This document shows positions 2,773 through 17,566 of a stretch of 33,824 bases of DNA, one piece after another. Positions within the stretch are counted from its first letter, which is position 1. Every line of letters begins with the position of its first letter. The position numbers and the translations under genes were made by a program. The notes under the pieces are model-generated. The model was not told the origin of the DNA. It did no database searches and was given only the letters and a program-made list of their open reading frames with translations. This stretch comes from a virus, in IMG/VR virus record IMGVR_UViG_3300031280_000010, positions 1-33,824 of that record. One strand, 5' to 3'.

Positions 2773-3390
2773 ATGATTACTGCTTTAAGTGTAAATTATA
2801 ATACTCCAGATTATCTTGAAAGGCTACTCAAGACATTCAGGCAATTTTATTCCAATTCATTTATTGTCATCGATGGATCAGATGAAATTAATTATAATCT
2901 GATAAAAGACTTTTCGGATAAATATAATATTGAATTACATCATTTAGATTATAATATACATCACGGACCCGGCCTTGCTTATGGGATAAAGTATATTCAG
3001 GCAGACCAGATACTTTTACTTGATTCAGATTTGATAGTTTTAAAATCAGGATTTGTAGAAGATTTACAAAGAAAATTAAAACAAGATAGTTATGGCATAG
3101 GTGATATTCAAATAGTTGACGAGAGAGGTTTTAATAAACCTATTGGTATTCGTTATCTACATCCAGCCTGTGCATTGATAAATCGAAATATTGTTTTAAA
3201 ATATCCATTACCGATAAAACATGGCGCACCGATGATTGAGGCTATGAAAGAAATAAACCGAAAGGGATTATCAGATAAAATCCTTCAACATGAATCTTGG
3301 GTAACAAATGATTTTCGTAAAAAAAATAAAATATATATTCATCATGACTGGATGGGGACAGTAAATAGGACAGGAGGTTATCATTTATAG
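2773..3390 (+). CDS. glycosyltransferase, family 2-like (GT-A)
   Basis: This 205-aa protein has a GT-A nucleotide-sugar-binding fold: ITALSVNYNTPDYLERLLKT at the N-terminus is the family-2 entry strand and helix, and ILLLDSDLIVL places a DxD-type metal site at residues 84-86. RYLHPACALINRNI is the expected acceptor-side region and IHHDWMGT near the C-terminus matches the HxxG-like closing element. It is short for a bacterial family-2 enzyme (often 250-350 aa) and has no membrane segment, so it is probably soluble. It should transfer a sugar from a nucleotide donor; donor and acceptor are unknown. It opens the sugar cluster that runs to 9579. Confidence 0.8.
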   Translation: MITALSVNYNTPDYLERLLKTFRQFYSNSFIVIDGSDEINYNLIKDFSDKYNIELHHLDYNIHHGPGLAYGIKYIQADQILLLDSDLIVLKSGFVEDLQRKLKQDSYGIGDIQIVDERGFNKPIGIRYLHPACALINRNIVLKYPLPIKHGAPMIEAMKEINRKGLSDKILQHESWVTNDFRKKNKIYIHHDWMGTVNRTGGYHL

Positions 3391-3399
3391 AATATAATC

Positions 3400-3504
3400 A
3401 TGAAAAAATTTATAGATTGGGTTGAAAATGATGGGGGATTTCTTGTAATTATTTATGGAGTTGGATTTATAGTATTTATAATAGCAATGTTATTTATTAA
3501 ATGA
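3400..3504 (+). CDS. single-pass membrane micropeptide (34 aa)
   Basis: A 34-residue frame, MKKFIDWVENDGG followed by one hydrophobic helix of about 20 residues (FLVIIYGVGFIVFIIAMLF) and a terminal IK. The length and flanking charges fit one transmembrane segment. It ends in an ATGA overlap with the next glycosyltransferase, as do most neighbours, which supports translation. It could anchor or recruit the soluble glycosyltransferases to the membrane, but that is inference from position only. Confidence 0.55.
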   Translation: MKKFIDWVENDGGFLVIIYGVGFIVFIIAMLFIK

Positions 3505-4217
3505 TTGCAATAGTTATACCGACATATTGTCGTCCTGATGGCAAGACCTATTCGTATCTTGATCGTGCTTTGAAATCAGTTTACAATCAATCTTATAAAG
3601 ATTTCAGTATTTTTGTTATCGGAGATGATTATAAAAAGAAAAACGAATTATTTCGTTTGTGTTATCGATATAAGGCAAAAGTGATAAATCTCTCTGAATC
3701 TATTGAACGTCTTAAATATCCTTTTGGTGATTATAGATTATTCTGTTCGGGAGGTATTACACCTTATTTAAAAGGCATTGAGTTTGCTTTAAAAACTGGA
3801 TATAAATATATTTGTCATCTTGATCATGATGATTGGTGGGAAAAAGATCACTTGTGGCAGATTGTGAATATAATAAAACAATATAATCCGCTTTTTATAT
3901 GTACACTTTCGACTTATTATGGTACTAACCTTCCGTATTTTGATCCTGATGGTAAATTGTTTGAATATTTCCCATGTGCCGGGGGTTGTGTTTTAAGCGC
4001 AACGTGTGTAAAATATTCATGTACTGATTTAAGATTCAGGGATGTATTTTCAGAGACAGGAACGGCACGTCCGGCAGATGCTGATTTCTGGGATCGGCTT
4101 GGTGAAGAAATGAAACAATCGAACAAGAAAGGATATTTGTTATCAAAAATAACATGTCATCACGATACTGAAGCTTATTCGATTAATGGGAAATTTAATA
4201 CAGATAAAAATAAATGA
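3501..4217 (+). CDS. glycosyltransferase family 2 (DHDDWW motif)
   Basis: A 238-aa GT-A enzyme. The N-terminus IAIVIPTYCRPDG and LDRALKSVYNQSYKDF are the classical family-2 start, and CHLDHDDWW (about 106-113) holds the metal/nucleotide-binding acidic motif. ADADFWDRLGEEM near residue 195 fits the catalytic acidic region, and CHHDTEAYS near the C-terminus the family's closing His motif. No membrane helix follows, so it is expected in the cytoplasm. It is coupled by ATGA overlaps to the micropeptide before it and to the DegT-like gene after it. Substrates cannot be read from sequence. Confidence 0.87.
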   Translation: MIAIVIPTYCRPDGKTYSYLDRALKSVYNQSYKDFSIFVIGDDYKKKNELFRLCYRYKAKVINLSESIERLKYPFGDYRLFCSGGITPYLKGIEFALKTGYKYICHLDHDDWWEKDHLWQIVNIIKQYNPLFICTLSTYYGTNLPYFDPDGKLFEYFPCAGGCVLSATCVKYSCTDLRFRDVFSETGTARPADADFWDRLGEEMKQSNKKGYLLSKITCHHDTEAYSINGKFNTDKNK

Positions 4218-4834
4218 ATCCTCATCAGATAACAACAGAATTTGAGAAAGCGATATGTGATTATACTGGTGCTCCATATTGTGTGGCTGTCGATAATGCT
4301 TCAAATGCCTTGTCTATGTGTCTTACTTATTGTAAAGCAGAAGAGAAAGAAATTGTAATACCTTCACATACATATCCGTCTGTGCCTTGTGAAATAATAT
4401 TAGCAGGAGGAAGGGTACGTTTTGAGGATTCGCCAAAGCATCTTACAGGAGAATATCAATTAAAACCATTACCTATATGGGATTCTGCTTTAAGATTTAC
4501 TGCTAATATGTATCGGCCCGGACAATATCAATGCCTATCATTTACAGGTCAATGGAAGCATTTAAAGATGTTAAAGGCAGGAGCGATACTTACAGACTCA
4601 CATGATGCTTATTTATGGTTTAAACGTTATCGTTTTTCGGGACGTAGAGAATGCAGTTATCATGATGATCATTTTGATATGTTGGGGAAAAATTATTATC
4701 TTCATCCTATATTTGCGACAATAGGATTACAGATGATACAGGCATTTTATAATTTGGACGGCACTAAAAAGGATATTCCAGACTTATCATTGCCTTACCC
4801 GGATTTGAGTAAATATGAAATATATAAAACCTAA
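4214..4834 (+). CDS. shortened DegT/DnrJ/EryC1-like PLP aminotransferase
   Basis: DegT-family enzymes use pyridoxal phosphate to put an amino group on nucleotide-linked keto-sugars. Here the large-domain landmarks appear in order: YCVAVDNASNALSMCL (phosphate-binding loop region), IVIPSHTYPSVPCEIILAGG, Asp90 in IWDSALRF (pairs with the pyridine nitrogen), Lys115 in SFTGQWKHLK (candidate Schiff-base lysine), GAILTD, and YYLHPIFATIGLQM. The family is normally about 370 aa; this one has 206 and lacks most of the C-terminal small domain. The stop is clean and followed by coupled genes, so it seems a stable short form, not a recent frameshift. It may be a reduced transaminase or a non-catalytic sugar binder. 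Confidence 0.75.
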   Translation: MNPHQITTEFEKAICDYTGAPYCVAVDNASNALSMCLTYCKAEEKEIVIPSHTYPSVPCEIILAGGRVRFEDSPKHLTGEYQLKPLPIWDSALRFTANMYRPGQYQCLSFTGQWKHLKMLKAGAILTDSHDAYLWFKRYRFSGRRECSYHDDHFDMLGKNYYLHPIFATIGLQMIQAFYNLDGTKKDIPDLSLPYPDLSKYEIYKT

Positions 4835-4838
4835 AAAG

Positions 4839-5153
4839 ATGAAAAGGAAAGAATTTTTGAAGAAGATTGTGTCAATATTTGGTATTGCTTTAATTGCACC
4901 AAAGATAATATTAAATAATGCCAAAAAGACAAACAAACCATTGACAGAAAATTATCCTATCTATGGACAAATAGAGTGTCCTGTATGTAAAGGATTCGGA
5001 ATTATTGAAATAGAAAGTGGGATTAAAGAATTATTTATTTCTGATACTTCAAGAGAATCAGAAAAAGAATTTAATTTAAGGCGTCATTTAGCAGAAGAAT
5101 ATGCTAATAAAATGTTAGATAATATTTATATTGAATTATTTTCGAATACATGA
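4839..5153 (+). CDS. small protein with signal/anchor sequence and CxxCxGxG motif
   Basis: The product (104 aa from the ATG at 4839) begins MKRKEFLKKIVSIFGIALIA, a basic start followed by a hydrophobic stretch. Bacteroidetes exported proteins often begin this way, including Tat-type ones with RR or KR before F-L. An in-frame ATG at 4815 would add eight residues and overlap the upstream gene; 4839 is preferred since it follows the TAA by four bases. CPVCKGFG is a single DnaJ-like zinc-binding half-site. The rest is charged and helical. It may be an inner-membrane anchored or exported partner of the sugar cluster; function is unknown. Confidence 0.6.
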   Translation: MKRKEFLKKIVSIFGIALIAPKIILNNAKKTNKPLTENYPIYGQIECPVCKGFGIIEIESGIKELFISDTSRESEKEFNLRRHLAEEYANKMLDNIYIELFSNT

Positions 5154-5869
5154 ATGCCTTTGTAGTTAAAAACCTTTGGAATTATGAATCTGTAAATCCT
5201 GTACCCAAAGGACTGGAAATGGATACATATTATATCACAGATTCAGAAAAGAATCGTATAGAAGCACTTAATAAAGGATGGGATTATGCCTGTAATATAT
5301 CTCAATTTAAAAAGGAAAGAGATTTATTAAAACGGCGTTCTATTATAGGATTTATAAATTGTTATCCTGAAATGGTTTGTGAACAATTAAAAGATTATGA
5401 TAAAATATTTGTTACAGACAGTAATATTTTGAATCTTCCGTCAAATTACAATGATTTTGTGTTTGCCTCAACCGATGATAAAGCTTGTTATTTAACTTCA
5501 GGCTATTATGAACAGATAGGACATAAGTTTGAAGATAATATACTTATGGAGCTGGAACGTTCTGTTAATTCAAGATGGTCTTATAATACAGATGCAATGA
5601 TTCGGGCTACGAATTATTATATTCATCTTCTTCAGGATGCAGGAATAAATCATACAGAATTATCGGTATCGTCTGCAAAATATATCGGATGGAATTTAAA
5701 ACATCCAAAACGGCAGGAAATAGCTGATTTTGTCACAGCAGAATACGAAAAACATTTACAAGGTAATATTATATTTACTTTTGTTTATGCTTATTGGAAG
5801 GATTATGTTCTTAACTTTCGCTTTTTGAACGATGATGTAATACACACACCGCATAAATTTATAGCATGA
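5150..5869 (+). CDS. putative nucleotide-sugar-transferase-like protein (239 aa)
   Basis: I do not recognise the family securely. The segment YDKIFVTDSNILNLPSNY resembles the DxD-bearing strand and loop of GT-A glycosyltransferases, and the same pattern (NIFLTDISDVELVKNPF) recurs in the gene at 8890. Residues 112-175 contain WSYNTDAMIRATNYYIHLL, a helical region. It has neither signal peptide nor membrane helix. ATGA overlaps couple it to both neighbours, placing it in the sugar operon. A transferase role is inferred from that context and the motif; it could be a non-enzymatic partner. Confidence 0.55.
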   Translation: MNAFVVKNLWNYESVNPVPKGLEMDTYYITDSEKNRIEALNKGWDYACNISQFKKERDLLKRRSIIGFINCYPEMVCEQLKDYDKIFVTDSNILNLPSNYNDFVFASTDDKACYLTSGYYEQIGHKFEDNILMELERSVNSRWSYNTDAMIRATNYYIHLLQDAGINHTELSVSSAKYIGWNLKHPKRQEIADFVTAEYEKHLQGNIIFTFVYAYWKDYVLNFRFLNDDVIHTPHKFIA

Positions 5870-6786
5870 AAAAACATAGAATAGCAGTAACAGCAACCGG
5901 GGGAGGTGTTGGTCAGTCAATACTTAAAGCTTTAAAGGATTCAGATTATGAAGTTATTGCACTTGACGGTGATCGACTTGGCGCAGGGCTTTATATGGTA
6001 TCAGAATCTTATCTTATACCTTATGCACGGGATCCTGAGTTTATTCCTTTTCTTTTAAATCTTTGCAAGGGAAAGGATATAGACCTGTTGTTTCCCGGCA
6101 TGGATTGCGAGCTACCAAAATTATCTGAAGCAAAGAAAATGTTTAATAAGTTAGGAGTGAAAATACCAATAAGCAATACTAAAATTATTGATATTGCAGA
6201 TAATAAACTGACTACTCAGCATTTCTTAAAGAATAATAAGTTTCCTTATATAAAGACTTTCATATATGGCAATAAGATGCGCTATGTTCTGAAACCCAGA
6301 ACAGGAGGTGCAAGATCACAAAACATGAGCTTTGTAACCGATAAGGATATATTCACATTCAAAAATAACTCTAATTATGTAGCTCAGGAATATATCGAAG
6401 GTGATGAATATACCTGTGGAATGCTGACTCTTGACGGCAAGTACATAGGCTGTATTGTCATGCGTAGAATATTAAGAGATGGTGACACATATAAAGCATT
6501 TGTTGAAAGAAACGAGACTATTGAAAATCTTTGCCGGGATATATGTAATATCTTAAAACCGGAAGGAGCTTTTAATATTCAACTCCGTATGCGTGATGGC
6601 GTGCCTTATGTCTTTGAGTTTAATGCTCGTTGTTCCGGCACGACTGCCGCACGTGCTTTAGCTGGCTTTAATGAACCAAAAATGATTGCTGATTATTATT
6701 TGAAGAATATTGAGCCTGAATTTAAGATCAAAGAGATAAATATACTCAGATATTGGAATGAATTAATTGTAGAAAAACTTATATGA
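5866..6786 (+). CDS. ATP-grasp family ligase
   Basis: A 306-aa ATP-grasp enzyme of the carbamoyl-phosphate-synthase-like group. The pre-ATP-grasp domain starts with a Rossmann-type loop (TATGGGVGQSILKALK) and IDLLFPGMDCELP. The ATP-binding part shows YVLKPRTGGARS (nucleotide-binding lysine and loop), VAQEYIEGDEYTC, and the metal-binding FEFNARCSGTTAA near residue 250. Such enzymes join a carboxylate to an amine or similar nucleophile through an acyl phosphate. Similar proteins sit in surface-polysaccharide loci, often beside epimerases and DegT aminotransferases, as here. The substrate is unknown; it might amidate a sugar acid or make a small activated precursor. Confidence 0.85.
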   Translation: MKKHRIAVTATGGGVGQSILKALKDSDYEVIALDGDRLGAGLYMVSESYLIPYARDPEFIPFLLNLCKGKDIDLLFPGMDCELPKLSEAKKMFNKLGVKIPISNTKIIDIADNKLTTQHFLKNNKFPYIKTFIYGNKMRYVLKPRTGGARSQNMSFVTDKDIFTFKNNSNYVAQEYIEGDEYTCGMLTLDGKYIGCIVMRRILRDGDTYKAFVERNETIENLCRDICNILKPEGAFNIQLRMRDGVPYVFEFNARCSGTTAARALAGFNEPKMIADYYLKNIEPEFKIKEINILRYWNELIVEKLI

Positions 6787-7532
6787 TAGCACTCACAGGA
6801 CACGGCGCACTTGCAGAGGCTTATGCAAAAGTAAATCGGGCATGTTATATACATTCTTTCCGATCGCTGGCAGATAATGAAATAGCAGATATTATCAGTC
6901 GTACAGATATATTGATACACAATGCAGCTACTTTGATAAACAAAGATGCAGAACAAAATCTTGCATTAACTAAAAGAATAGTTTACCTTATATTAAAACA
7001 TAAGCCGGAAGTTAAATTTCTGTATGTCGGGTCAATGTCGTATCTTAGCGAAACAGGATATTTGTCAGAACAATGGATGACACCTTATACTTATTCGAAA
7101 TTTCTTTCTGAAAAATATTGTTTTGCTACTTTAAATAATATCAAGACAATACGTTTTTCTACTTTGTTTTATCGTGATCCTGAACGTGATGGGCTTAGTC
7201 GTTTAATAGCGGATGCTGTTAAAACAAAGAAAATATCGCTTATTAACGGTGGAACACAAACACGTGACTGGCTTCCGATAAATATAGCAGCAAAAGAACT
7301 TCATCGAGTAGCGACAACAAACACGCCTCCGATAAATACAATTGCATCAGGAGTGGAAACATCATTTTTGAAGCTTGCTAATATTGTTCATAAATATACT
7401 GATTGTTCAATAGATTATAAAAGGGAAATAATTATAAACCCCAGTCTTGTATGTAGTAAGTTTGCAAAGACTGTAGAAGTAGATTTAGATAAAGAGATAA
7501 AAGAATATATTAAACAATTAAAAATTGATTAA
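6783..7532 (+). CDS. NAD-dependent epimerase/dehydratase (extended SDR)
   Basis: This 249-aa protein shows the extended short-chain dehydrogenase plan. It opens MIALTGHGALAEAY, a Rossmann dinucleotide loop with a reduced glycine pattern, then ILIHNAATLINKD, FLYVGSMSYL (catalytic Ser region) and YTYSKFLSEKY with the YxxxK pair. RFSTLFYRDPERDG and GGTQTRDWLPINIAAKEL match the substrate-domain region of NDP-sugar epimerases. It is shorter than usual (about 300-330 aa). Expected activity is oxidation/epimerisation or dehydration of a nucleotide sugar in the cytoplasm. It is coupled by ATGA to the ATP-grasp gene, suggesting consecutive steps in one pathway. Confidence 0.85.
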   Translation: MIALTGHGALAEAYAKVNRACYIHSFRSLADNEIADIISRTDILIHNAATLINKDAEQNLALTKRIVYLILKHKPEVKFLYVGSMSYLSETGYLSEQWMTPYTYSKFLSEKYCFATLNNIKTIRFSTLFYRDPERDGLSRLIADAVKTKKISLINGGTQTRDWLPINIAAKELHRVATTNTPPINTIASGVETSFLKLANIVHKYTDCSIDYKREIIINPSLVCSKFAKTVEVDLDKEIKEYIKQLKID

Positions 7533-7533
7533 A

Positions 7534-7758
7534 ATGGAAACAGGGGAAAATATTATTCTTAATAAAGCACAATTAAAAGCAATTGGAGGATCAGATATAT
7601 TTGATTGTATTAATGAAGCAATTCAATTCGCAGCTAAGCATGATATTAAATGTACTTTAATACATAATAGTATTGAAGTTGAGGTATCGACACAAGAATT
7701 AAAAGAGACTATTTATAATATGTGGAATAAATTATTAAAAGAAGCTTGTAAGAAATGA
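7534..7758 (+). CDS. hypothetical protein (74 aa)
   Basis: Not recognised. The product is METGENIILNKAQLKAIGG with a central helix (IFDCINEAIQFAAKHDIKC) and a C-terminal helix. The start at 7534 follows the preceding TAA by one base; an earlier non-ATG start in the same frame is less likely. It overlaps the phosphoesterase gene by ATGA. The phrase IKCTLIHNSIEVEV suggests a short beta hairpin. It could be a small accessory protein of the sugar genes, or an unrelated passenger. Confidence 0.5.
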   Translation: METGENIILNKAQLKAIGGSDIFDCINEAIQFAAKHDIKCTLIHNSIEVEVSTQELKETIYNMWNKLLKEACKK

Positions 7759-8375
7759 AGATACTTGTATTTTCAGATATACATGGCAATTTACCTGCAA
7801 TTGAAAAGTTATTAAACACAGAATCGGCTGATTTATATATTTCGCTTGGTGATGTAGTTAATTACGGTCCCTGGCAAAATGAATGTGTCGAGTTACTTGA
7901 TACTTTGAAATACAAGATATTACATTTTGGCAATCATGAACAGTATTATTATAAAGGAAAATATAGTAATAATAATCTCGCAGGACGATTTTTCGAATTT
8001 TGCTATCCGCAATTCACCCGACATGATCTTATAAAAGACTATCGGGAAGATTCAAGATTAAATGGATATAACTTTCAGCATACTTTCGAGAATAAGGTTA
8101 TTTATCCCGATACTCATATTGTATTTAATGATAATTATATTATCGGTCATTCACATCATCAATCTTTACACAAATATAGACGATGGAAGATGTATTGCAT
8201 AGGCTCAGCAGGTCAAAACCGACAATATATAAACCGTATTGATTATATGATCATGAATCATACTTGCGAACTGAAACATTTAATTTATGATGAAACGCTT
8301 GTTATAAATGAAATGAAAGCAAGAAAATATCCGAAAGAATTTATCGAGTATTATAGTAAAAAACAAAGGATATGA
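7755..8375 (+). CDS. calcineurin-like metallophosphoesterase
   Basis: A 206-aa enzyme with the full di-metal motif set of the calcineurin-like (YfcE/MJ0936-type) superfamily: FSDIHGN (Asp8, His10), LGDVVNYGP, HFGNHEQYY, and IIGHSHHQ, followed by IGSAGQNR. These residues bind two divalent metals that hydrolyse phosphomonoesters or diesters, including cyclic nucleotides and nucleotide sugars. It is soluble. In this setting, between sugar-nucleotide genes and a methyltransferase, it may hydrolyse a nucleotide or sugar-phosphate intermediate; a 3'-5' nucleotide role is also possible. ATGA overlaps join it to both neighbours. Confidence 0.9.
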   Translation: MKILVFSDIHGNLPAIEKLLNTESADLYISLGDVVNYGPWQNECVELLDTLKYKILHFGNHEQYYYKGKYSNNNLAGRFFEFCYPQFTRHDLIKDYREDSRLNGYNFQHTFENKVIYPDTHIVFNDNYIIGHSHHQSLHKYRRWKMYCIGSAGQNRQYINRIDYMIMNHTCELKHLIYDETLVINEMKARKYPKEFIEYYSKKQRI

Positions 8376-8893
8376 TCTGGGAAAAAATTGAAGGGTGGTT
8401 TGATTTTCAGAATTTATATCTTGACAGGGTACAGAATTGCGATAATGCTGTTTTTATTGAAATAGGATGCTGGCGTGGTAAATCAGTTGCATTCCTGGCA
8501 GAGATGATAAAAGAATCAAACAAGAACATCAAATTGTTTGCGATAGATATATGGAAACCTTTTATGCAGGGTGGTGTTATGGAGTGCGCCCCATACGAAG
8601 AATATCTTAAAAACACAGAGCTATTAAAGGAATATATAACAACAATAAAGCTATCATCGGTTGAGGCATCGAAGCTCTTTGAGGATAATTCTGTAGATTT
8701 TATTTTTATAGATGCCTGTCATGATTATAAATCGGTAAAGAGTGATATTATTGCATGGTTGCCGAAAATTAAGAAAGATGGTATCTTTGCAGGACATGAT
8801 TATGACTGGCCCGGAGTTAATCAGGCAGTTAATGAAATATTGCCAAACCATAGGATAATTAATGGTAACACATGGATTTATAAACAAGAATGA
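8372..8893 (+). CDS. class I SAM-dependent methyltransferase (Methyltransf_24-like)
   Basis: A 173-aa protein with motif I as VFIEIGCWRGKSVAFLAEM (SAM-binding glycine region shortened to GCWRGKS), acidic motif II in LFAIDIW, and motif IV/post-IV as DFIFIDACHDYKSVKSDI. KDGIFAGHDYDWPGV near the end is characteristic of the Methyltransf_24 group, often linked to rhamnosyl or other sugar O-methylation in polysaccharide clusters. It probably methylates a small sugar or its lipid/protein-linked product. Coupled by ATGA to the phosphoesterase before and the transferase-like gene after. Confidence 0.85.
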   Translation: MIWEKIEGWFDFQNLYLDRVQNCDNAVFIEIGCWRGKSVAFLAEMIKESNKNIKLFAIDIWKPFMQGGVMECAPYEEYLKNTELLKEYITTIKLSSVEASKLFEDNSVDFIFIDACHDYKSVKSDIIAWLPKIKKDGIFAGHDYDWPGVNQAVNEILPNHRIINGNTWIYKQE

Positions 8894-9579
8894 ATTATAT
8901 AGCAAGTACATATATATCCGGAATAAAAGATACTCAAAGGATGATAATAAAACTTCCTGATGATCATAATTATATTTCTTCATGGTATAAATCGGTAATC
9001 TCAAATAATCTTAAATGCATTGTTTTTCATAATGAATTATCACAGGATTTTATTATTAACTATCCGGAATGTCGTTTTATTAAAGTCATAAATCCGGGAT
9101 TAAATCTTTATGATTTTCGCTGGTATATGTTTAAAAATCTGCATGATATAGATTTTGATAATATATTTCTGACAGATATTTCAGATGTAGAGTTAGTAAA
9201 AAATCCTTTTTTGCAAACAGAATATAATCAGGATGATATATTTTGCGGAGACGAACAGTATAGTATGAATACATGGCCGATGTTATTTGCTGACGAGAAA
9301 TTCAAGGAATTACCTGAATGGGATAATATAATAAATTCCGGGAATGTCTTACTTAATGCCGGTATTGTGGGAGGATCAAGGTCTGTTGTAATTCATTATA
9401 TTGATCTTATAAATATAATCATTGACCAGGTTAAAGGATACAAAGAGACTACATGTGTAGATATTCCGCTTTATAATTATGTGCTGTACCGTTATTTTAA
9501 ACCGATACACGGATTTCCTGTTAATTCAGTATTCAGAAAATTTGAAAAAAGTAATGATGTTTGGTTCATTCATAAATAA
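8890..9579 (+). CDS. putative glycosyltransferase, nucleotide-sugar-transferase-like
   Basis: This 229-aa protein has the order of a GT-A transferase of the family-8/DUF type: IASTYISG start, LKCIVFHNEL, then DFDNIFLTDISDVELVKNPF with a DxD-like acidic site, SGNVLLNAGIVGGSRSVV (acceptor-side NaG motif) and a C-terminal VWFIHK. A similar acidic strand occurs in the gene at 5150. No membrane segment or signal peptide is seen. It is the last gene of the sugar cluster; immediately behind it a promoter starts the packaging genes. Sugar donor and acceptor are unknown. Confidence 0.65.
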   Translation: MNYIASTYISGIKDTQRMIIKLPDDHNYISSWYKSVISNNLKCIVFHNELSQDFIINYPECRFIKVINPGLNLYDFRWYMFKNLHDIDFDNIFLTDISDVELVKNPFLQTEYNQDDIFCGDEQYSMNTWPMLFADEKFKELPEWDNIINSGNVLLNAGIVGGSRSVVIHYIDLINIIIDQVKGYKETTCVDIPLYNYVLYRYFKPIHGFPVNSVFRKFEKSNDVWFIHK

Positions 9580-9582
9580 TAC

Positions 9583-9613
9583 TTGACAATAATATTAAAA
9601 TATCGTATATTTG
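9583..9613 (+). promoter_or_regulatory. Bacteroidetes-type promoter before the packaging/head genes
   Basis: TTGACA (9583-9588) and TATATTTG (9606-9613) are separated by 17 bases. TATATTTG fits TAnnTTTG, the -7 element of Bacteroidetes housekeeping promoters. The region lies in the only sizeable gap around and is followed by a strong AAGGAGG ribosome-binding site at 9649-9655. It likely drives 9663-17539. Confidence 0.75.
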
Positions 9614-9797: not shown

Positions 9798-9911
9798 ATG
9801 AGGCGCAAAAAACCAAAAGAGCTAAAGAGACAAAGCCTCAATAAATATTTGGAGAGAGAGAAGTATAAACAGATAGCAAGAGATAAAAGAAATGGGCGCA
9901 CCTCGAAATAA
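9798..9911 (+). CDS. tiny basic protein (37 aa) overlapping the small terminase start
   Basis: A 37-aa frame beginning MRRKKPKELKRQSLNKYLER, basic and helical. It starts three bases after the previous stop and runs 20 bases into the terminase small subunit gene in another frame. The overlap could couple translation of the terminase to it. Composition resembles the preceding small protein, so both may be basic packaging accessories. Too short for a firm call. Confidence 0.42.
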   Translation: MRRKKPKELKRQSLNKYLEREKYKQIARDKRNGRTSK

Positions 9912-10362
9912 TCAATTTTGGAAACTTCGTTCAAAGCATGGACGTGATAAGTTATTTACTACTCCTGAATTACTTTGGAAAGCAGCTTGCGAATATTTTC
10001 AATGGTGTGAAAATAACCCGATAAAAGCATACGATAATAAAGGAACAAAAAATGTAAACCTTGTATCATTTAGGAGACCTTTCACATTGAAGGGTTTTTG
10101 TCTTTATTGTGATGCTACCGAACATTGGTATTATGAATTTAAGAAGGCATTAGATGATGAAAAGGATAAAGATTTTTTGTATATCTGTCATAAAATAGAG
10201 GATATTATTTACAATCAAAAGTTTGAAGGAGCAGCAATAGGAATATTCAATGCAAATATAATTGTACGTAATCTTGGGCTTTCTGAAAATATAAATCAAA
10301 ATGTAAATATACCTAAAGAATTGCCTGTTGTAATTGTTAAACGAAGAACAAGTGAAAGGTGA
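9892..10362 (+). CDS. terS: terminase small subunit (gp3-like DNA-packaging protein)
   Basis: The 156-aa protein matches the gp3-like DNA-packaging family. It has FWKLRSKHGRDKLFTTPELL and AACEYFQWCENNP at the start, a middle RPFTLKGFCLYCD helix-turn-helix-like segment, and KIEDIIYNQKFEGAAIGIFN with NANIIVRNLGL near the end. The small terminase oligomerises, recognises viral DNA and hands it to the large subunit at the portal. It is followed at once by the large terminase, overlapping its start. This fixes the window as phage and the direction of the late genes. Confidence 0.9.
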   Translation: MGAPRNNQFWKLRSKHGRDKLFTTPELLWKAACEYFQWCENNPIKAYDNKGTKNVNLVSFRRPFTLKGFCLYCDATEHWYYEFKKALDDEKDKDFLYICHKIEDIIYNQKFEGAAIGIFNANIIVRNLGLSENINQNVNIPKELPVVIVKRRTSER

Positions 10363-11827
10363 TGAGATAGTTCAGGAATTAAGTGATCCGCAAATGGATA
10401 TATTTGAAAGCACCGCTTCAATAAATCTATTTTTAGCAGGTTATGGATCAGGTAAGACATTTCTTGATGGTTTATTATCAAAACAATTAATAGCTAAATT
10501 CCCTGAATGCAGGGGTGGTATATTTGCAAATACTTATGATCAATTAAATACAGCTACACTTTTAAGAATACGTGAATATTGGGCCTCAACAGGGATGACA
10601 GAATGGTCTAAAGAAAATCCAGATGGTTGTTATATATCAAACAAAGAACCCCCAATACACTGGAAAGATTGTATAAGAAATTTTGATAGATATACGAATA
10701 TTATTTCATTTAGAAATGGAGGATTGATATTTACAGGATCGCTCGATAATGCAGTTATGCATTCAGGAAAAGAAATGGCATGGTGTATTCTTGATGAAAC
10801 TAAAGATTCAAAAGAGGAAGATGTAAAGGGAATAATTCTTTCACGTTTGCGTCAACCAGGAATGTATTTAGTTAATGGAGAAATTACAAACAAAGGAACA
10901 ATTAATCAGCAATGGAATCCACTTTATATTTCTACATCACCGGCAAAAGTTCCCTGGATATCTGAATGGTTTGAACTTGAAAAATATATTGATGATATAT
11001 CGTCACTTATTTATTCTGACAAAACATATTTTAAAAAACAGTTTGGAAATAAATTTGTAACAATATCATCAACATATCATAATATTGCTAATGTTGGAGA
11101 GAATTATATCAATAAATTACTCACAGAAAATTCCAAAGAGCGTGGCAAGGCTCTTGTATATGCTAATCCTTTTGTTGTTACCGGAGGGGAATTTTATTCA
11201 TCATTTAACAGAATAGAGAATGTACAATCATTACATTATGATCCTTCCCTGGCTATACATATCACATTTGATCAAAACACAGTTCCATATAATACAGCAC
11301 TCATATATCAGATAAAGCAGGATAAAGATATTTGGTATGCTTTGTGTATCGATGAGATATGTCTTGAGAATCCACGTAATTCAACCGAGGAAGTTTGTGA
11401 AGAATTTATTGAACGTTATCCGAATCATAAATCAGGACTGTATTATTATGGCGATGCTTCCGGACATAACAGATCAACAATGTCTAAAGACTTCAAACAT
11501 CATTACGAAATAATAGCTTATAAGCTTTATAAATACCTGAATAACTATTCGGACAGAACATTAAGGCAAAATCCGTCACTTGTTACCCGGCGGGATTTTA
11601 TGAATGCTGTTTTCGAAAAGAAATTACCGATAAGGCACTTAATAAATGAGATATGTAAGCATACCATTGCAGACTTTATGTATGTCAGGCAGGCAATTGA
11701 TGGGACAAAAGACAAACATATCATTACGGATCCCGAGACAGGTGAAAGATACCAGAAATATGGACATACATCAGATTCTTCAGATTATCTGTTCGTTGAA
11801 TTGTTTAAAAACTATTATAGTGGGTAA
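10352..11827 (+). CDS. terL: terminase large subunit
   Basis: The packaging motor and nuclease. From the GTG at 10352 it is 491 aa. Walker A is LAGYGSGKT (P-loop at about 30-36) and Walker B is WCILDET with the acidic pair at about 148-149. The C-terminal RNase H-like nuclease shows ITFDQNT (about 307), YYGDASG (about 368) and HTSDSSDYLF (about 475-478), giving the expected metal-binding aspartates. No ATG fits; GTG 10352 overlaps the small terminase by 11 bases, and a TTG at 10334 is an alternative six codons longer. It translocates DNA into proheads with ATP and cuts concatemers. Confidence 0.95.
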   Translation: MKGDEIVQELSDPQMDIFESTASINLFLAGYGSGKTFLDGLLSKQLIAKFPECRGGIFANTYDQLNTATLLRIREYWASTGMTEWSKENPDGCYISNKEPPIHWKDCIRNFDRYTNIISFRNGGLIFTGSLDNAVMHSGKEMAWCILDETKDSKEEDVKGIILSRLRQPGMYLVNGEITNKGTINQQWNPLYISTSPAKVPWISEWFELEKYIDDISSLIYSDKTYFKKQFGNKFVTISSTYHNIANVGENYINKLLTENSKERGKALVYANPFVVTGGEFYSSFNRIENVQSLHYDPSLAIHITFDQNTVPYNTALIYQIKQDKDIWYALCIDEICLENPRNSTEEVCEEFIERYPNHKSGLYYYGDASGHNRSTMSKDFKHHYEIIAYKLYKYLNNYSDRTLRQNPSLVTRRDFMNAVFEKKLPIRHLINEICKHTIADFMYVRQAIDGTKDKHIITDPETGERYQKYGHTSDSSDYLFVELFKNYYSG

Positions 11828-11975
11828 AAGATTATTATTTATATTGTTATTATTGCCATTTTGTTTAATATGCGGATTAATAATGATATTTAATGTATTT
11901 TACTGGCTTTTTACAGGAAATAATTGTTTATGGATCATTGATACATTAACTTATAAAATGCGGAGGTTATTATGA
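11820..11975 (+). CDS. small membrane protein between terminase and portal (51 aa)
   Basis: The frame starts with GTG at 11820, inside the end of the terminase gene, and ends in an ATGA overlap with the portal gene. It encodes a hydrophobic segment (LLFILLLLPFCLICGLIMIF) directly continued by NVFYWLFTG, then a short basic tail ending KMRRLL. The open frame extends far upstream but there it is only the terminase in another phase, so the GTG start is the sensible one. Placement between terminase and portal is unusual; it might be a membrane-bound accessory or a small holin-like protein. No family recognised. Confidence 0.5.
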   Translation: MGKRLLFILLLLPFCLICGLIMIFNVFYWLFTGNNCLWIIDTLTYKMRRLL

Positions 11976-13768
11976 CAAAAGATGAAGCACTCCCAATACT
12001 ATTAGATGTTATTGAAAACGATAAACATCACCAGGATTATGACAGGGTTACAAAACTCGCCGATGAATATTATAAAATGAAGTCGGGAGATAACATTACC
12101 GATCTACTAAAGAGGATGATAACAAGAGAAACTGAAGAAGAATTTGATCAGCGAAAGAAAATATCAAAGTCGGTTATACCTTCAACTCTCAATAGTACTC
12201 AGCTACCTTTTCAAAAAGCACTTCGTAAACAGCCGTTACTGAGAGAGATAATAACAAAGTCGAAGGCCAAAAAGACAGAACTTGAAGATCATATCAGCCA
12301 TTACTGGGGAGAGAAATCCCTTGAGGAATATCTGGAATATGCTTTTATCAATTATAACTATATCGATCCCAATGCTTTTCTTATAACAGAATTTGATGAA
12401 TTTGATTCCCGGAAAGAAAAAGCAGCACCATATCCTTTTGTCGCCACATCTAAGGAATGTATAATGTTTGAATATAAAAACCAGATATTACAGTATCTGA
12501 TTGTTCAATTACCTATTCAATATAAAGATTACGAAGAAGGAAAAAAACAAGGTGGTATTATTGAAAAGATAAATATAACAAAAGATGGCAGTAAGTTCAC
12601 AATGTATTTGGGGCAGGATACCGTACAGATGACACAAGTAGGGAAGGATGGTTACATGATTGATCTTAAAGAAGGGCAGGAGATTATTGTTATTAAAGAG
12701 AATTATTATCTTTTAGAGTATTTTGAGCCGAAGGCAAATAAAGTACCAGCAGCAAGGTTTGGTTATCTATATGATACTCAAACAAAAGGCCGTACAATGG
12801 TATCAGTATTTCATCCTGTGCTTTTACTCCTTGAAAAGATGATGAAAACAGATTCCGAAGAAGATTTGTCAATTGCCATGACAGCATTTCCACAGAGGTT
12901 AATCTATTTGGATAAATGTCATAATCCGCAATGTAAGAACGGACAGCTTCTTGATGGCAGTGGTATTTGTCAGGAATGCCAGGGAACAGGTAAGAGTCCT
13001 ATACATAAGGGAGTAACTGATATATTAACATTTAAGATCCCGGATAATCCTGCGGATATGATTGATCTTGAGCAATTGCTTGTTTATAAGTCACCTCCGA
13101 TAGAGACACTTAAATTTATGGATGAGTATGTCTCTAATATACGTAAATTGATTCATGCCATGATGTTTAATGCAGAAATATTTTCACGTACAGAGATAAC
13201 GACAACTGCAACGGAGAAAGAACTTGAGACCGATAATATGAATGACACATTATATCCATTTGCGAGGGCATTTTCGCAGATGTGGGAGTTTATTGTCGAA
13301 GATATAGCAACATTTACTGATCTTAATGATGGATTGATATTGCATCATAAAATGCCCGAAGATTTTAAATTCAAATCATTGCCTTCTCTTATGGCAGAGA
13401 TGAAAGCTGCTAAAGACGCAGGAGCATCGACTTCTACGATAGCAGCAATTGAAGATGATATAAACAATATACTTTATGCTGACCGGCCCGGTGATTTGAA
13501 ACGTATCCAGGTGAAACAAAAATATAATCCTTTCCGGGGTTATGATGAAAGTACTGTCAGACTACTTATATCACAGAGTAAGACAACGGAATATAACGCC
13601 GTACTTTGGGCAAATCTCGAATCGGTATTTAACGAGATAGAACTTGAAACACCGGATATTTATAATAAAAGTGATGATATTATAACCGAGAAAGTAAAAG
13701 CTATTGTCGCCCGCTATATCGAAGAGATCAATAACGTGAAAGAAATAAAAGAACCGTTTAAAGATTAA
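11972..13768 (+). CDS. portal protein with internal zinc-finger-like insertion
   Basis: The 598-aa size, the place between large terminase and head morphogenesis genes and the helical composition with a long alpha-rich C-terminal half all fit a portal, the dodecameric ring through which DNA enters the capsid. A GGAGG at 11962-11966 precedes the ATG. An unusual feature is a Cys4 site at 316, 321, 333 and 336 (CHNPQC, then CQECQGTGK), resembling a zinc knuckle or DnaJ-type half-site. The segment after it (PPIETLKFMDEYVSNIRKLI) may be the stem/clip transition. The assignment rests mainly on synteny and size. Confidence 0.8.
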   Translation: MTKDEALPILLDVIENDKHHQDYDRVTKLADEYYKMKSGDNITDLLKRMITRETEEEFDQRKKISKSVIPSTLNSTQLPFQKALRKQPLLREIITKSKAKKTELEDHISHYWGEKSLEEYLEYAFINYNYIDPNAFLITEFDEFDSRKEKAAPYPFVATSKECIMFEYKNQILQYLIVQLPIQYKDYEEGKKQGGIIEKINITKDGSKFTMYLGQDTVQMTQVGKDGYMIDLKEGQEIIVIKENYYLLEYFEPKANKVPAARFGYLYDTQTKGRTMVSVFHPVLLLLEKMMKTDSEEDLSIAMTAFPQRLIYLDKCHNPQCKNGQLLDGSGICQECQGTGKSPIHKGVTDILTFKIPDNPADMIDLEQLLVYKSPPIETLKFMDEYVSNIRKLIHAMMFNAEIFSRTEITTTATEKELETDNMNDTLYPFARAFSQMWEFIVEDIATFTDLNDGLILHHKMPEDFKFKSLPSLMAEMKAAKDAGASTSTIAAIEDDINNILYADRPGDLKRIQVKQKYNPFRGYDESTVRLLISQSKTTEYNAVLWANLESVFNEIELETPDIYNKSDDIITEKVKAIVARYIEEINNVKEIKEPFKD

Positions 13769-13772
13769 TTAA

Positions 13773-14354
13773 ATGATGCGGTCTGATGGATTTTATGATT
13801 ATGCGTGGTCGCCAGTAACAGGTTGTCTTAATGATTGTTGGTATTGTTATGGTAAGAAAGATTTTGAACAACGAGGATTAAGTTATCTTCCTGAGTTTCA
13901 TCCTGAGAGATTACGAGAACCTTACGGTTATAAACCATCGAGAATATTTGTTACACATTATACTGACCTGATGGGTGATTTTATTCCTGAAGAATGGGTT
14001 AAATCTATTATAGGAGTATGTAATGATTTGTCAAAACAGACCTTTATGTTCCTGACAAAGAATCCCAAAAGATATTACGAATATGATTTCCCTGATAATT
14101 GTATACTTGGCGTTACTGTTGAATCAAAAAATGAGATTCAGCGTATTGATATTATCTCAGGGATAAAAGCCAGGAAGTGGATTTCTATTGAGCCTATACT
14201 TGGAGATTTCACCGGAGTTGATCTTTCGCAATTTGAACTTTGTATCATTGGTAAACTATTTAACCATGTATCAAAGATAAGACCCGAATGGGTGCGATCT
14301 GTTTCGCATTCCAATATCTATTATAAACCAAATGTCAGGAGGTATTTGAAATGA
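13773..14354 (+). CDS. Gp37/Gp68-like (DUF5131) radical-SAM-type protein
   Basis: This 193-aa protein belongs to the phage Gp37/Gp68 group, DUF5131. The N-terminus AWSPVTGCLNDCWYCYGKK holds the CxxxCxxC cluster typical of radical-SAM iron-sulfur proteins. RIFVTHYTDLMGDFIPEEW, TFMFLTKNPKRY, GVTVES and WISIEPILGDF are the other conserved blocks. The family usually is about 230-260 aa; this copy ends soon after IEPILGDF and is somewhat short. It presumably performs a SAM-dependent radical reaction on an unknown substrate. It sits between portal and the head morphogenesis gene, overlapping the next gene by ATGA. Confidence 0.9.
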   Translation: MMRSDGFYDYAWSPVTGCLNDCWYCYGKKDFEQRGLSYLPEFHPERLREPYGYKPSRIFVTHYTDLMGDFIPEEWVKSIIGVCNDLSKQTFMFLTKNPKRYYEYDFPDNCILGVTVESKNEIQRIDIISGIKARKWISIEPILGDFTGVDLSQFELCIIGKLFNHVSKIRPEWVRSVSHSNIYYKPNVRRYLK

Positions 14355-14668
14355 ATGAAAGAATTATTTACAAAGAACATTTTTTTTATGATGATCCAGT
14401 AGGTAATTGGTATAAATGCGATAATTGTAATGAAGAAGTCTTTATTCCTTCTGGTTATCCCATATATTCATATTGTCCTTATTGTGGAGAGGAGATTGAT
14501 AAGATTGATGGTTGTGGACAATGTAAAGATGATGATAATATATGTATAGCAAATTATGTTCAAATTAAAAATCCAAGAACGCAAAAGTTTATAAAAATTG
14601 ATAAAAAACAAGGTAGGATTATTGCTTCAAATAAAAATGAGTTTTTAAATATAGAAATTATAAAATGA
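14351..14668 (+). CDS. zinc-ribbon protein, unknown (105 aa)
   Basis: The protein carries YKCDNCNEEVF and YCPYCGEEID, two CxxC pairs about 20 residues apart that should form one zinc ribbon, followed by DGCGQC with another pair. The C-terminal YVQIKNPRTQKFIKIDKKQG looks like a small beta domain seen in phage hypothetical proteins. AGGAGG at 14337-14342 is a good ribosome-binding site. It is flanked by ATGA overlaps on both sides. DNA, RNA or protein binding are all possible. Confidence 0.65.
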   Translation: MNERIIYKEHFFYDDPVGNWYKCDNCNEEVFIPSGYPIYSYCPYCGEEIDKIDGCGQCKDDDNICIANYVQIKNPRTQKFIKIDKKQGRIIASNKNEFLNIEIIK

Positions 14669-15264
14669 GGTTTTCGGTCATTATGGCTTCACGTCTCGTT
14701 CCTTATAGCAGTCAATGTGCAGAGCCTGAAGCAAAATTACGCAGAGCTATTCAGTCGGTACTCGATCAGTCATTCCGGGATTTTGAACTGATAGTCATTG
14801 CTGACGGTTGTAAGAGAACTAAAGAGATAGTTAAAGAATTTAAGGGAATACGTTTTTTTGAAGTCAAACATACACAACTTTGGGGCAATGCTCCTCGTAA
14901 TGCCGGGATTAAAAACGCCAAAGGAGAATATATCATATATTGCGATAGTGATGACTGGTGGGGGACAGAACATTTACAAATCATTAATTCTAATATTAAA
15001 GATAATGACTGGGTATATTATAATGATATTGCTTATGATAAACGCAATGCTCGATGGATTGAACGTGCGTGTAATATCCATAAAATGGGAGCTTGTGGAA
15101 CATCAAATATATGTCATGCCTCACGACTCGGATTGCATTGGCAGCATCCGGGCTATGCTCATGACTATTATTTTAATCAACAGTTATTAAGGTATCATAA
15201 CTTCAAAAGAATACCGACTCCCGAATATTATGTTTGCCATATACCAAATAATTATGACTTATGA
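14665..15264 (+). CDS. glycosyltransferase family 2 within the head module
   Basis: A 199-aa GT-A protein with the family-2 pattern: FSVIMASRLVPYSSQC, LRRAIQSVLDQSFRDFELIV, ADGC and YCDSDDWWG (acidic motif at 94-99). GNAPRNAGIKNAKGEY is the classical nucleotide-binding helix preceding the DxD. GACGTSNICHASRLGLHW is the acceptor region, and YVCHIPNNYDL closes the protein. It is the clearest glycosyltransferase outside the 2773-9579 cluster and lies among head genes, coupled by ATGA to the zinc-ribbon gene. It may glycosylate a virion component, but this is inference. Confidence 0.88.
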   Translation: MRFSVIMASRLVPYSSQCAEPEAKLRRAIQSVLDQSFRDFELIVIADGCKRTKEIVKEFKGIRFFEVKHTQLWGNAPRNAGIKNAKGEYIIYCDSDDWWGTEHLQIINSNIKDNDWVYYNDIAYDKRNARWIERACNIHKMGACGTSNICHASRLGLHWQHPGYAHDYYFNQQLLRYHNFKRIPTPEYYVCHIPNNYDL

Positions 15265-15474: not shown

Positions 15475-15672
15475 ATGATGAACTGGAAAACATTAAAACG
15501 GAAATACCCCAAAGTATGGGAAAGTGTGTATGATTCAATGATCACTGATCTTTTGGATTGTATGTCAGGTGCTGATATTGAGCAATATAAAATAGGTAAT
15601 AAAGATTGCCGTATATGTCGAATAGCACATAATGCTGCATTTTTAGCTTGTGATGCAATTAAATATACCTAA
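15475..15672 (+). CDS. hypothetical protein with CRIC motif (65 aa)
   Basis: Not recognised. It has two adjacent ATG codons at its start and a helical make-up (WKTLKRKYPKVWESVYDSMI). KDCRICRIAHNAAFLACDAI has a CxxC pair. It ends one base into the start of the following gene (TAATG). Its Cys content echoes the zinc-ribbon protein upstream, but no family is apparent. Confidence 0.5.
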   Translation: MMNWKTLKRKYPKVWESVYDSMITDLLDCMSGADIEQYKIGNKDCRICRIAHNAAFLACDAIKYT

Positions 15673-16355
15673 TGACTTATGACCTTATTATAGTATCCCG
15701 CAGTTCACATCCGGAATTGATACGCAATACCCAGCATGCAATAGATACATGTCTTGCTGATACAAAAAAGGTAAACGTGATACTCATTGAGACATATAAG
15801 AAACATTATTATCGGGGAGTTAATGAGATGATATTTTACACAGATGATTTTATTTATAACCATGCTTTAAATCTCGGTCTTGAACATCGAAAGAATGAAA
15901 TACAGATACTTGCAAATAACGATATAATATTTCAAAAGGGATGGTCAAAGATAGGAAATATAATGCGTGCAAATAATTATTTGTCAGCTTCAGCTCTTTC
16001 AGGTGATTTGCGCCAAAGGTGGTTCCAGCGTGGAGATTGGGCTTATGAGGGTTATTTAATAGGATTTCAACTATCGGGATGGTGTATATTTTGTGATCAT
16101 AAATTATGGGATAAGATTGGAAAACTGGATGAGATATACAAATTTTGGTTTTCGGATAATGCTTATGCGGAACAATTAAAACGTGCAAAGATAAAACATG
16201 CTTTAATATGTAGCGTTTTTGTAGATCATTTAGGATCAAGGACCTTGAATAAATGTGATTCACAAACAAGAATGCTATATACACATTCATCAAGAAAAAA
16301 GATAAGACATGCCACGAGAAAAAGAATCATTAAAGCTGATACCAAAGATTTATAA
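15672..16355 (+). CDS. glycosyltransferase-like protein (GT-A, divergent acidic motif)
   Basis: The 227-aa product begins YDLIIVSRSSHPELIRNTQH, a family-2-like first strand and helix. FIYNHALNLGLEHRKNE is the nucleotide-binding helix, followed by IQILANNDIIFQKGW, where NND stands in the place of DxD; only the third position keeps an aspartate. LSGWCIFCDHKLWDKIGKL resembles the acceptor region, and a late VDHLGSRT supplies the closing His. It is the second glycosyltransferase-like gene in the head module. Loss of the first aspartate could reduce metal dependence or activity. It overlaps the next gene by 47 bases. Confidence 0.72.
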   Translation: MTYDLIIVSRSSHPELIRNTQHAIDTCLADTKKVNVILIETYKKHYYRGVNEMIFYTDDFIYNHALNLGLEHRKNEIQILANNDIIFQKGWSKIGNIMRANNYLSASALSGDLRQRWFQRGDWAYEGYLIGFQLSGWCIFCDHKLWDKIGKLDEIYKFWFSDNAYAEQLKRAKIKHALICSVFVDHLGSRTLNKCDSQTRMLYTHSSRKKIRHATRKRIIKADTKDL

Positions 16356-16566
16356 AAGGAACTATGAAGATATTTCTATGTTTTTTTATGTACTCGCACT
16401 ACGGAAAACTATACCGGCAATGTCGATACAAAAGTGTCTTTATATGTATTTCGGCGAAGTCGGTATTGATGATTATAACATAGAATCGGCAATGACAACA
16501 TTTACGAGAATGCAAAAAGAATATATTGAATTAAAGCGTAATGAGACTTCCAAAAAGATTAAATGA
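16309..16566 (+). CDS. hypothetical protein upstream of head morphogenesis gene (85 aa)
   Basis: The frame overlaps the previous gene by 47 bases and the next by 26. The product (MPREKESLKLIPKIYKRNYE, MFFYVLALRKTIPAMSIQKC, YFGEVGIDDYNIESAMTTF) is helical and of mixed charge. Small proteins of this kind accompany head morphogenesis genes in Bacteroidetes phages, but I cannot name a family. The double overlap suggests compact coding or an internal start; a shorter start cannot be excluded. Confidence 0.6.
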   Translation: MPREKESLKLIPKIYKRNYEDISMFFYVLALRKTIPAMSIQKCLYMYFGEVGIDDYNIESAMTTFTRMQKEYIELKRNETSKKIK

Positions 16567-17539
16567 CATATTACTGCGTAAACAGGCATTTATTGATGCT
16601 GAACGTAATCGTTTGGAACAATCGGTTGTTAAACTACAATCCCGGTTATTAGATGATATTATTACAGAGATAATGCCGGCTTTGGATGTTCGTAACGGCG
16701 TTATCCTTGATACAAAGAATAATTATCGTTTGCTTGCCGACCTTGACCGTATTTATAAGGACTTCACAAAAATAACTGCTGATGTTGTTACAGAGAATAT
16801 GTCTGGTGCTATCGGTGGTATTGTTGATTTTGGCAAACGTTATTTTGCTATTTCGTTTGTTGATCTACCTGTAAGATTTGATAAAGTGATTTCGTCTGCT
16901 GCATCAAACATGAATCTTCGTATCGGTCTTGACGGCGGTCGTATGATACGTGGAGGGTTTCTCGAATCACTCGTAAAAGATACATCGTTGCTTACCGAAG
17001 TTAAAAACTATGTGGCCAGATCGATAACAGGACAAATAGATACCAAAGATTTTATCCGGGGATTAAAAGATATGCTCCAGGGTGTGCCGAAGACTATTGT
17101 AAAAGACGGTAAAAGAATAATTACTCAAACCGGGGCACTTGAGAAATTATATCAGCGGTATGCCTATGACCTTTATCAACAATACGATGCTGCTTATAAC
17201 AAAGCTCTTGCCGATGAGTTTGATATGAATTATTTTATGTATCAGGGAGGTTTAATTGAAGATTCGAGAGATTTCTGTGTAGCACATAATGCAAAGGTAT
17301 GGTCACGTGAAGAAGCCGATACATGGAAGAATTGGCGACCTGTCGATGGACAATATCCTGAAGGTTATAAAGTAAAGCAAAAAGACATTTACAAACATCC
17401 CGGTTATATGGATTACGAAGGTTACAATCCATTTATTGACCGGGGAGGATATAGATGTCGTCATGGTCTGGGATGGATTTCCGATGAGTTGGCATACAGA
17501 TTAAGACCAGAATTGAAAAAAAATAATAAAAAAACTTGA
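16541..17539 (+). CDS. head morphogenesis protein, Mu gpF-like (minor capsid protein)
   Basis: The 332-aa protein has a long helical N-terminal region and a C-terminal block typical of the Mu gpF/SPP1 gp7 head morphogenesis family: YQGGLIEDSRDFCVAHNAK, then SREEADTWKN, and PFIDRGGYRCRHGLGWISD near residues 300-318. The conserved Cys/His residues (C and H of FCVAHN, C and H of YRCRHG) probably bind metal. Such proteins are packaged in small copy number near the portal and help prohead assembly. The stop codon is part of the TTGACA of the following promoter. Confidence 0.85.
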   Translation: MRLPKRLNDILLRKQAFIDAERNRLEQSVVKLQSRLLDDIITEIMPALDVRNGVILDTKNNYRLLADLDRIYKDFTKITADVVTENMSGAIGGIVDFGKRYFAISFVDLPVRFDKVISSAASNMNLRIGLDGGRMIRGGFLESLVKDTSLLTEVKNYVARSITGQIDTKDFIRGLKDMLQGVPKTIVKDGKRIITQTGALEKLYQRYAYDLYQQYDAAYNKALADEFDMNYFMYQGGLIEDSRDFCVAHNAKVWSREEADTWKNWRPVDGQYPEGYKVKQKDIYKHPGYMDYEGYNPFIDRGGYRCRHGLGWISDELAYRLRPELKKNNKKT

Positions 17540-17566
17540 CAAACTAATATTTTCGTTATACATTTG
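17536..17566 (+). promoter_or_regulatory. Bacteroidetes-type promoter of the capsid unit
   Basis: TTGACA (17536-17541) and TACATTTG (17559-17566) are 17 bases apart, the same geometry as at 9583-9613. TACATTTG fits TAnnTTTG. The -33 element overlaps the last codons of the head morphogenesis gene. It is followed by a 39-base leader and the gene at 17606, and a terminator ends the unit at about 20092. Confidence 0.78.

Follow-up and report, generated by a model that had tools for sequence, protein, structure and literature searches.

Fixed glycosyltransferases in the head operon and an exchangeable sugar-gene cassette before the terminase of Bacteroidota-type tailed phages: a candidate system for virion glycosylation

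The virus record IMGVR_UViG_3300031280_000010 (33,824 bases, GC content 35%), analyzed over its whole length and hereafter called the window, belongs to a tailed phage of Bacteroidota type and carries a putative sugar-modification operon upstream of its terminase genes. The operon consists of 12 open reading frames (ORFs) on the + strand between positions 2773 and 9579, joined by 4-nt overlaps at 8 of 11 junctions, and just two ORFs of 43 and 37 amino acids separate it from the small and large terminase genes. These counts bear out the original prediction of eleven or twelve mostly overlapping genes directly before the terminase. The families that it named (GT2, DegT, ATP-grasp, epimerase, phosphoesterase and methyltransferase) are all present as Pfam matches, and the recurrence of the layout in dozens of independent contigs supports its view that a genuine phage genome carries a sugar operon. 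The boundaries it gave are those of the operon and not of the glycan genes, which continue past position 9579 with two more glycosyltransferase (GT) genes, at 14665–15264 and 15672–16355. Two features had escaped it: the hypervariability of the slot that the operon occupies, and the fixation of further GTs in the head operon.

The window portal has no match among 50,697 phage records, which suggests a lineage uncultured as far as tested, and the terminase has distant matches only, including Flavobacterium and Salinibacter phages. A terminase profile search retrieved 80 viral loci. Two close ones (L085 and L086) sit in Bacteroidota metagenome-assembled genomes (MAGs), and the lineage probably infects Bacteroidota. 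Three relatives of 52.2, 52.9 and 51.9 kb carry terminal repeats of 123–127 bp, so the window probably represents about two thirds of a genome.

To describe the slot before the terminase, genes of at least 140 amino acids upstream of it were compared across 22 loci and counted as shared at 40% identity. No cassette gene was common to the two loci in 162 of 231 pairs, with a median sharing of zero; the count includes some ordinary phage genes (HNH, NinG, DNA methylase). The full set of the window was found in no other locus examined. Its half-size DegT gene (mini-DegT) recurs in L007 (71% identity) and its methyltransferase in L012 (40%), and a few further relatives of its cassette genes occur in the lineage, at other positions. 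Despite this replacement of genes, the content stays mostly glycan-related. GT2 matches were obtained for 27 of 133 cassette proteins, and other cassette GTs are of the GT11, GT17, GT32-like, GT7C and GT92-like types, accompanied by sugar-nucleotide dehydratases and epimerases (SDRs), UDP-GlcNAc 2-epimerase, methyltransferases, and formyl- and acetyltransferases. Transaldolase, sedoheptulose-phosphate isomerase (GmhA-like SIS), HddA-like heptose kinase and RfaE-domain-II-like nucleotidyltransferase occur in varied combinations in L011, L021–L023 and L027. All four heptose-nucleotide genes are held by L023:1890-4484, which may encode a near-complete route to a nucleotide-heptose; most heptose-pathway genes score below the NCBIfam equivalog cut-offs.

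The GTs of the head operon are, on the contrary, fixed. Our survey covered 21 loci, the window and four near-duplicates included, that span the region from the portal gene to a MuF-like gene and have a large terminase at least 55% identical. The core GTs c3 and c4 lie between these two genes in all 21. A third one, c5 (Pfam GT2, invariant LKLDND), is present in 18, and no ortholog of it was found in the window. In two loci without c5 (L009 and L017), its slot between c3 and c4 is occupied by a relative (69%) of the GT encoded at 2773 in the window, where this gene lies in the upstream cassette and not in the c5 slot. The 2773 product matches c5 itself weakly (28%, E 0.005), so the proposal that it replaces c5 is drawn from the position of its relatives. 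In L051, sugar genes are found between c3 and c5. Pairwise identities of the core GTs follow those of the portal, with Mantel r of 0.80 for c3, 0.87 for c5 and 0.89 for c4, compared to 0.87 for the MuF-like protein and 0.71–0.89 for other head proteins; none of them, portal included, correlates more than weakly with the large terminase (0.02–0.36). We infer from this parallel divergence that the core GTs descend with the head genes. They apparently belong to one transcription unit with the portal and MuF-like genes. Over the GT domain only, c3 and c5 (199–204 amino acids) touch GtrB PHROGs, and c4 gave chance matches only against PDB sequences. A homologue of c4 is gp17 of mycobacteriophage LittleE (34%), which is part of a four-GT block flanked by major capsid and head-tail connector genes. 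The c4 homologue of Gordonia phage JonJames adjoins the small terminase gene.

Other genes were observed near the core GTs. At 13773–14354, between the portal gene and the core GTs, the window encodes a DUF5131 / radical-SAM-mobile-pair-like protein common to L010, L022, L023, L040 and L084. Long fibre-like proteins without a Pfam match follow the portal beside the core GTs in L033:6560-7720, L007:11108-12898 and L086:9220-11472; they are possible glycan acceptors or head fibres.

Table 1. Positions of the cassette, packaging and head-operon features in the window.
Feature	Position	Strand	Remarks
GT2 glycosyltransferase	2773–3390	+	PF00535, E=1.3e-9
Hydrophobic 34-amino-acid mini-ORF	3400–3504	+	4-nt overlap with next gene
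GT2 glycosyltransferase	3501–4217	+	PF00535, E=2.3e-9
Mini-DegT, half-size sugar-aminotransferase-like	4214–4834	+	DegT_DnrJ_EryC1, PF01041, E=2.4e-15
112-amino-acid ORF	4815–5153	+	lysine-rich hydrophobic N-terminus, CPVCKGFG motif
GT-A-fold glycosyltransferase, closest to GT6	5150–5869	+	structure model
ATP-grasp ligase, PRK12767 carbamoyl-phosphate-synthase-like type	5866–6786	+	PylC_N + ATP-grasp, E=6e-17; NF009402 above cut-off
Short SDR / NAD-dependent epimerase-like	6783–7532	+	PF01370, E=1.6e-7; phrog_540
74-amino-acid ORF	7534–7758	+	
Calcineurin-like phosphoesterase	7755–8375	+	PF00149, E=1.1e-15
S-adenosylmethionine (SAM) methyltransferase (Methyltransf_24)	8372–8893	+	E=1.2e-21
Glycosyltransferase, phrog_1579	8890–9579	+	E=7.2e-16
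Bacteroidota-type promoter motif (putative), TTGACA...TATATTTG	9583–9613	+	between cassette and terminase
Terminase small subunit	9892–10362	+	phrog_606, E=3e-41
Terminase large subunit	10334–11827	+	
Portal protein	11972–13768	+	phrog_7376, E=2.8e-15
Core GT2 c3	14665–15264	+	PF00535, E=3.8e-18; invariant DxDD
Core GT c4	15672–16355	+	phrog_22332 glycosyltransferase, E=6.5e-29; invariant NND
c6, small conserved head-operon ORF	16309–16566	+	
Conserved head-operon protein, MuF-like by position and by eye	16541–17539	+	no Pfam match
Second Bacteroidota-type promoter motif (putative)	17536–17566	+	after MuF-like gene, end of core-GT unit
Tape measure gene	starts 23404		

The operon probably holds four GTs: two of the GT2 family, one that is GT6-like by fold, and one of phrog_1579. 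The first GT2 has a relative in L063 (54%). The product of the 5150–5869 ORF has no Pfam or PHROG match, and its four relatives all lie within mini-DegT sugar loci of other phages. Its structure model (pLDDT 84) resembles GT-A enzymes, with a xyloside xylosyltransferase as the top Foldseek hit. A second structure alignment pointed to GT6, with BoGT6a of Bacteroides as the best match (Z 11.6, 199 residues, root-mean-square deviation [rmsd] 4.1, 12% identity), and the modeled fold is thus closest to a GT6-type GT-A fold. Relatives of the phrog_1579 GT occur in mycobacteriophages and Klebsiella jumbo phages; pattern searches of viral contigs for relatives of this protein and of the GT6-like one found none. 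The methyltransferase has relatives in loci of other phages, the SDR sequence shows the S and YxxxK residues, and the 112-amino-acid ORF has no relatives among the fetched loci.

The DegT-like protein of the original prediction does belong to that family, as a half-size variant of 206 amino acids, compared to about 370 in full DegT/DnrJ/EryC1/StrS enzymes; it is devoid of an internal segment and of the C-terminal domain. Matches to this mini-DegT were found in 103 viral contigs, in records ranging from small contigs to 436 kb, with 54–71% identity to the window copy among the matches listed. All 82 sequences examined measure 200–229 amino acids. D90 is invariant in them, as is K115, which profile alignment places on the pyridoxal phosphate (PLP) lysine of GDP-perosamine synthase. 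The structure model (pLDDT 88) aligns with GDP-perosamine synthase 3dr4 over 183 residues (Z 17.8, rmsd 2.7), and mini-DegT may well be catalytically active. At a threshold of E 1e-30, no match was found in 247 Bacteroidota genomes, and 7 of 7 viral controls were recovered; the family is, as far as tested, confined to phages. Its neighbors in 80 loci (L107–L186) include a PglD-like acetyltransferase (37 loci), a GT2 of the 3501 type (26 loci) and methyltransferases. The acetyltransferase gene often follows mini-DegT, and a second, more distant mini-DegT copy occurs in record G278.

The proposed gene order (ATP-grasp, SDR, small protein, phosphoesterase, methyltransferase, transferase) was rejected as a conserved phage operon, being absent from every other phage examined; in many phage relatives the slot holds other sugar genes. 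Its sole recurring part was found in a bacterium. In separate searches of about 200 and 300 Bacteroidota genomes, the ATP-grasp and the phosphoesterase each matched one genome, the same for both (G126, locus L191), where their genes are one gene apart. This locus contains ATP-grasp, SDR and phosphoesterase genes in the order seen in the window (33, 38 and 37% identity), then a full DegT gene, and these genes come after an initiating-transferase-like gene within a polysaccharide locus. Because the order recurs there, the three enzymes look like one pathway unit. Among viruses, the window ATP-grasp had a single relative and no match in cultured phages, and a literature search on the ATP-grasp/phosphoesterase unit found nothing. 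In L002:520-11072, from a phage with an unrelated terminase, GTs, a methyltransferase, an ATP-grasp (48% to that of the window), an SDR and a full-length DegT are encoded between the terminase and a portal-like gene.

Promoter motifs were searched as TTG, 18–22 nt, TAnnTTTG, with expectations derived from first-order Markov sequences. The cassette-terminase junction carries the motif in 11 of 22 loci, where 1.1 would be expected (maximum of 5 in 500 trials), and the stretch after the MuF-like gene does so in 5 of 13, where 0.2 would be expected. It fits sigma-70 as well, and both copies in the window are candidate promoters. At the terminase itself, the large-subunit ORFs of L009:9992-12445, L011:9992-12448 and L044 (from 10001) reach about 820 amino acids and contain, at a common site near the C-terminus, an intein-like insert that begins with Cys and ends with VHNC; similarly long ORFs exist in L014 and L057.

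We think it somewhat probable that the cassette and the fixed head-operon GTs together glycosylate virion proteins with soluble machinery in the infected cell. The window operon would be one version of a hypervariable glycan cassette in which mini-DegT, ATP-grasp, SDR, phosphoesterase and methyltransferase would supply unusual activated sugars, and the two GT2, GT6-like and phrog_1579 enzymes would extend the glycan. The two core GTs, at 14665 and 15672, would then probably attach or start this glycan, with a protein of the head or connector as acceptor. Descent of the core GTs alongside the head genes, and their place in the apparent transcription unit of the portal, fit such a virion acceptor. 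Replacement of the cassette could alter the surface presented to hosts, defences and other ligands. More tentatively, and at slightly less than even chances in our view, this would amount to a serotype-like system of the particle, in which a structural protein is primed by the fixed GTs and the exchangeable cassette chooses the glycan, such that near relatives differ as bacteria do in O-antigen; the choice would be among glycans with amino sugars, heptose, deoxy sugars or methylated sugars.

Several points weigh against virion glycosylation. The Mantel test speaks to common descent and not to common function, and similar divergence is to be expected of genes that lie side by side. The core GTs are absent from more distant relatives (L052, L053, L062, L064, L070–L072 and L074) and hence are not required for head assembly as such. 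The motif between cassette and terminase suggests that cassette and head genes may differ in the timing of their expression. Finally, soluble GTs could act on host lipid-linked intermediates exported by the host, and a change of the host surface is the published, favoured reading of comparable cyanophage and pelagimyophage clusters (PMC7824862, PMC7029224).

Remodelling of the host surface is the main rival explanation, one that we consider rather unlikely: phage GTs would add foreign sugars to lipid-linked units in the host cytoplasm, the host would export them, and superinfecting phages would no longer bind. Beyond the published reading, it draws support from the recurrence of the ATP-grasp/SDR/phosphoesterase order in a surface-polysaccharide locus with an initiating transferase, and from several cassette families typical of O-antigen or capsule loci. 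However, none of 30 phage records contains GtrA (PF04138), Wzx flippase (PF01943) or the initiating sugar-phosphate transferase Bac_transf (PF02397), all three of which are present in both MAGs searched, with these and reference genomes as positive controls. As many of the phage records are fragments, absence of a gene can be relied on just in the three that have terminal repeats and is suggestive in the others, and the window, a partial genome, is limited in the same way. An integrase was found in just 1 of 16 records, and host-surface remodelling leaves the GTs fixed between portal and MuF unexplained. Of the three roles originally put forward, it is those fixed GTs that favour decoration of the virion; remodelling of the host surface is weakened by the searches above, and nucleotide modification is disfavoured by those that follow.

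That the sugars are placed on phage DNA bases and block host nucleases seems improbable to us, even if phage GTs can glycosylate DNA (PMC7029224) and GTs encoded near packaging genes could act ahead of packaging. Thymidylate synthase (PF00303) was found in 0 of the 30 phage records, with positive controls in one of two MAGs and in reference genomes, and QueC (PF06508), the only preQ0 gene searched, in 0 of 16. The GTs, in their number and variety, together with the ATP-grasp and the methyltransferase, also go beyond the needs of base hypermodification as currently known. We give very little credence to a cassette that makes a diffusible or capsule-like product aiding the host during infection, next to core GTs with an unrelated virion function. 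Some cassettes do carry B12-radical SAM, BKACE and formyltransferase families, and a second cyanophage cluster has been so read (PMC7824862), but GTs dominate the cassettes, that of L051 lies between core GTs, and relatives of a GT from the window cassette occupy the core slot. Mis-assembly, or the joining of a bacterial island to a phage contig, can practically be dismissed even though some enzymes have bacterial relatives, since independent contigs from many samples, dozens in all and three with terminal repeats, repeat the layout, and the cassette resembles the remainder of the window in base composition.

Phage GTs are usually explained as modifiers of DNA or of the host surface. A conserved head-operon core combined with an exchangeable cassette makes virion glycan diversity in tailed phages a concrete and testable proposition, which, if true, bears on adsorption, immune recognition of phages and virion stability. 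The minimal fold of mini-DegT could also reveal what sugar aminotransferases require. Sugar clusters in phages and glycosylation of virions are each already known; fixed head-operon GTs with an exchangeable pre-terminase sugar slot, in an uncultured Bacteroidota-associated lineage, were not found in the literature that we reached.

Comparison with known systems shows features that the window lineage shares with several of them and others that set it apart. The phage records differ from GtrABC serotype conversion by the lack of the GtrA flippase, from a complete O-antigen or capsule locus (Wzx/Wzy) by the lack of an initiating transferase and of Wzx, from phages with glycosylated hydroxymethyl-pyrimidine DNA by the lack of a thymidylate-synthase-like hydroxymethylase, and from 7-deazaguanine DNA modification by the lack of QueC in 16 records. 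The Bacteroidota surface polysaccharide locus of G126 shares the ATP-grasp/SDR/phosphoesterase order, and this bacterium, unlike the phage, has an initiating transferase, export-type genes and a DegT of full length. Mini-DegT has the fold core and the aligned PLP lysine of DegT/DnrJ/EryC1/StrS aminotransferases such as 3dr4 without their full architecture. Flavobacterium phage vB_FspM_immuto (MW353176) carries a sugar locus with a 56%-identical mini-DegT, GTs, an epimerase and a methyltransferase, in a 160-kb genome of another lineage. Clusters of the cyanophage P-SSM2 type and pelagimyophage islands (PMC7824862, PMC7029224) likewise combine several genes for GTs, SDRs and nucleotidyltransferases in sets that vary between relatives. 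They belong to large T4-like myoviruses and lie in an island with tail fibres, whereas the window lineage has genomes of about 52 kb, a slot directly before the terminase and vertically inherited head-operon GTs. Finally, the head-module GT blocks of mycobacteriophages (Omegavirus LittleE gp15/17/18/21) likewise hold a c4 homologue among several GTs, and glycans are reported on mycobacteriophage capsid and tail-tube subunits in work cited in PMC12619734. The host of LittleE is of another phylum, and the LittleE region read contains no swappable sugar-nucleotide cassette.

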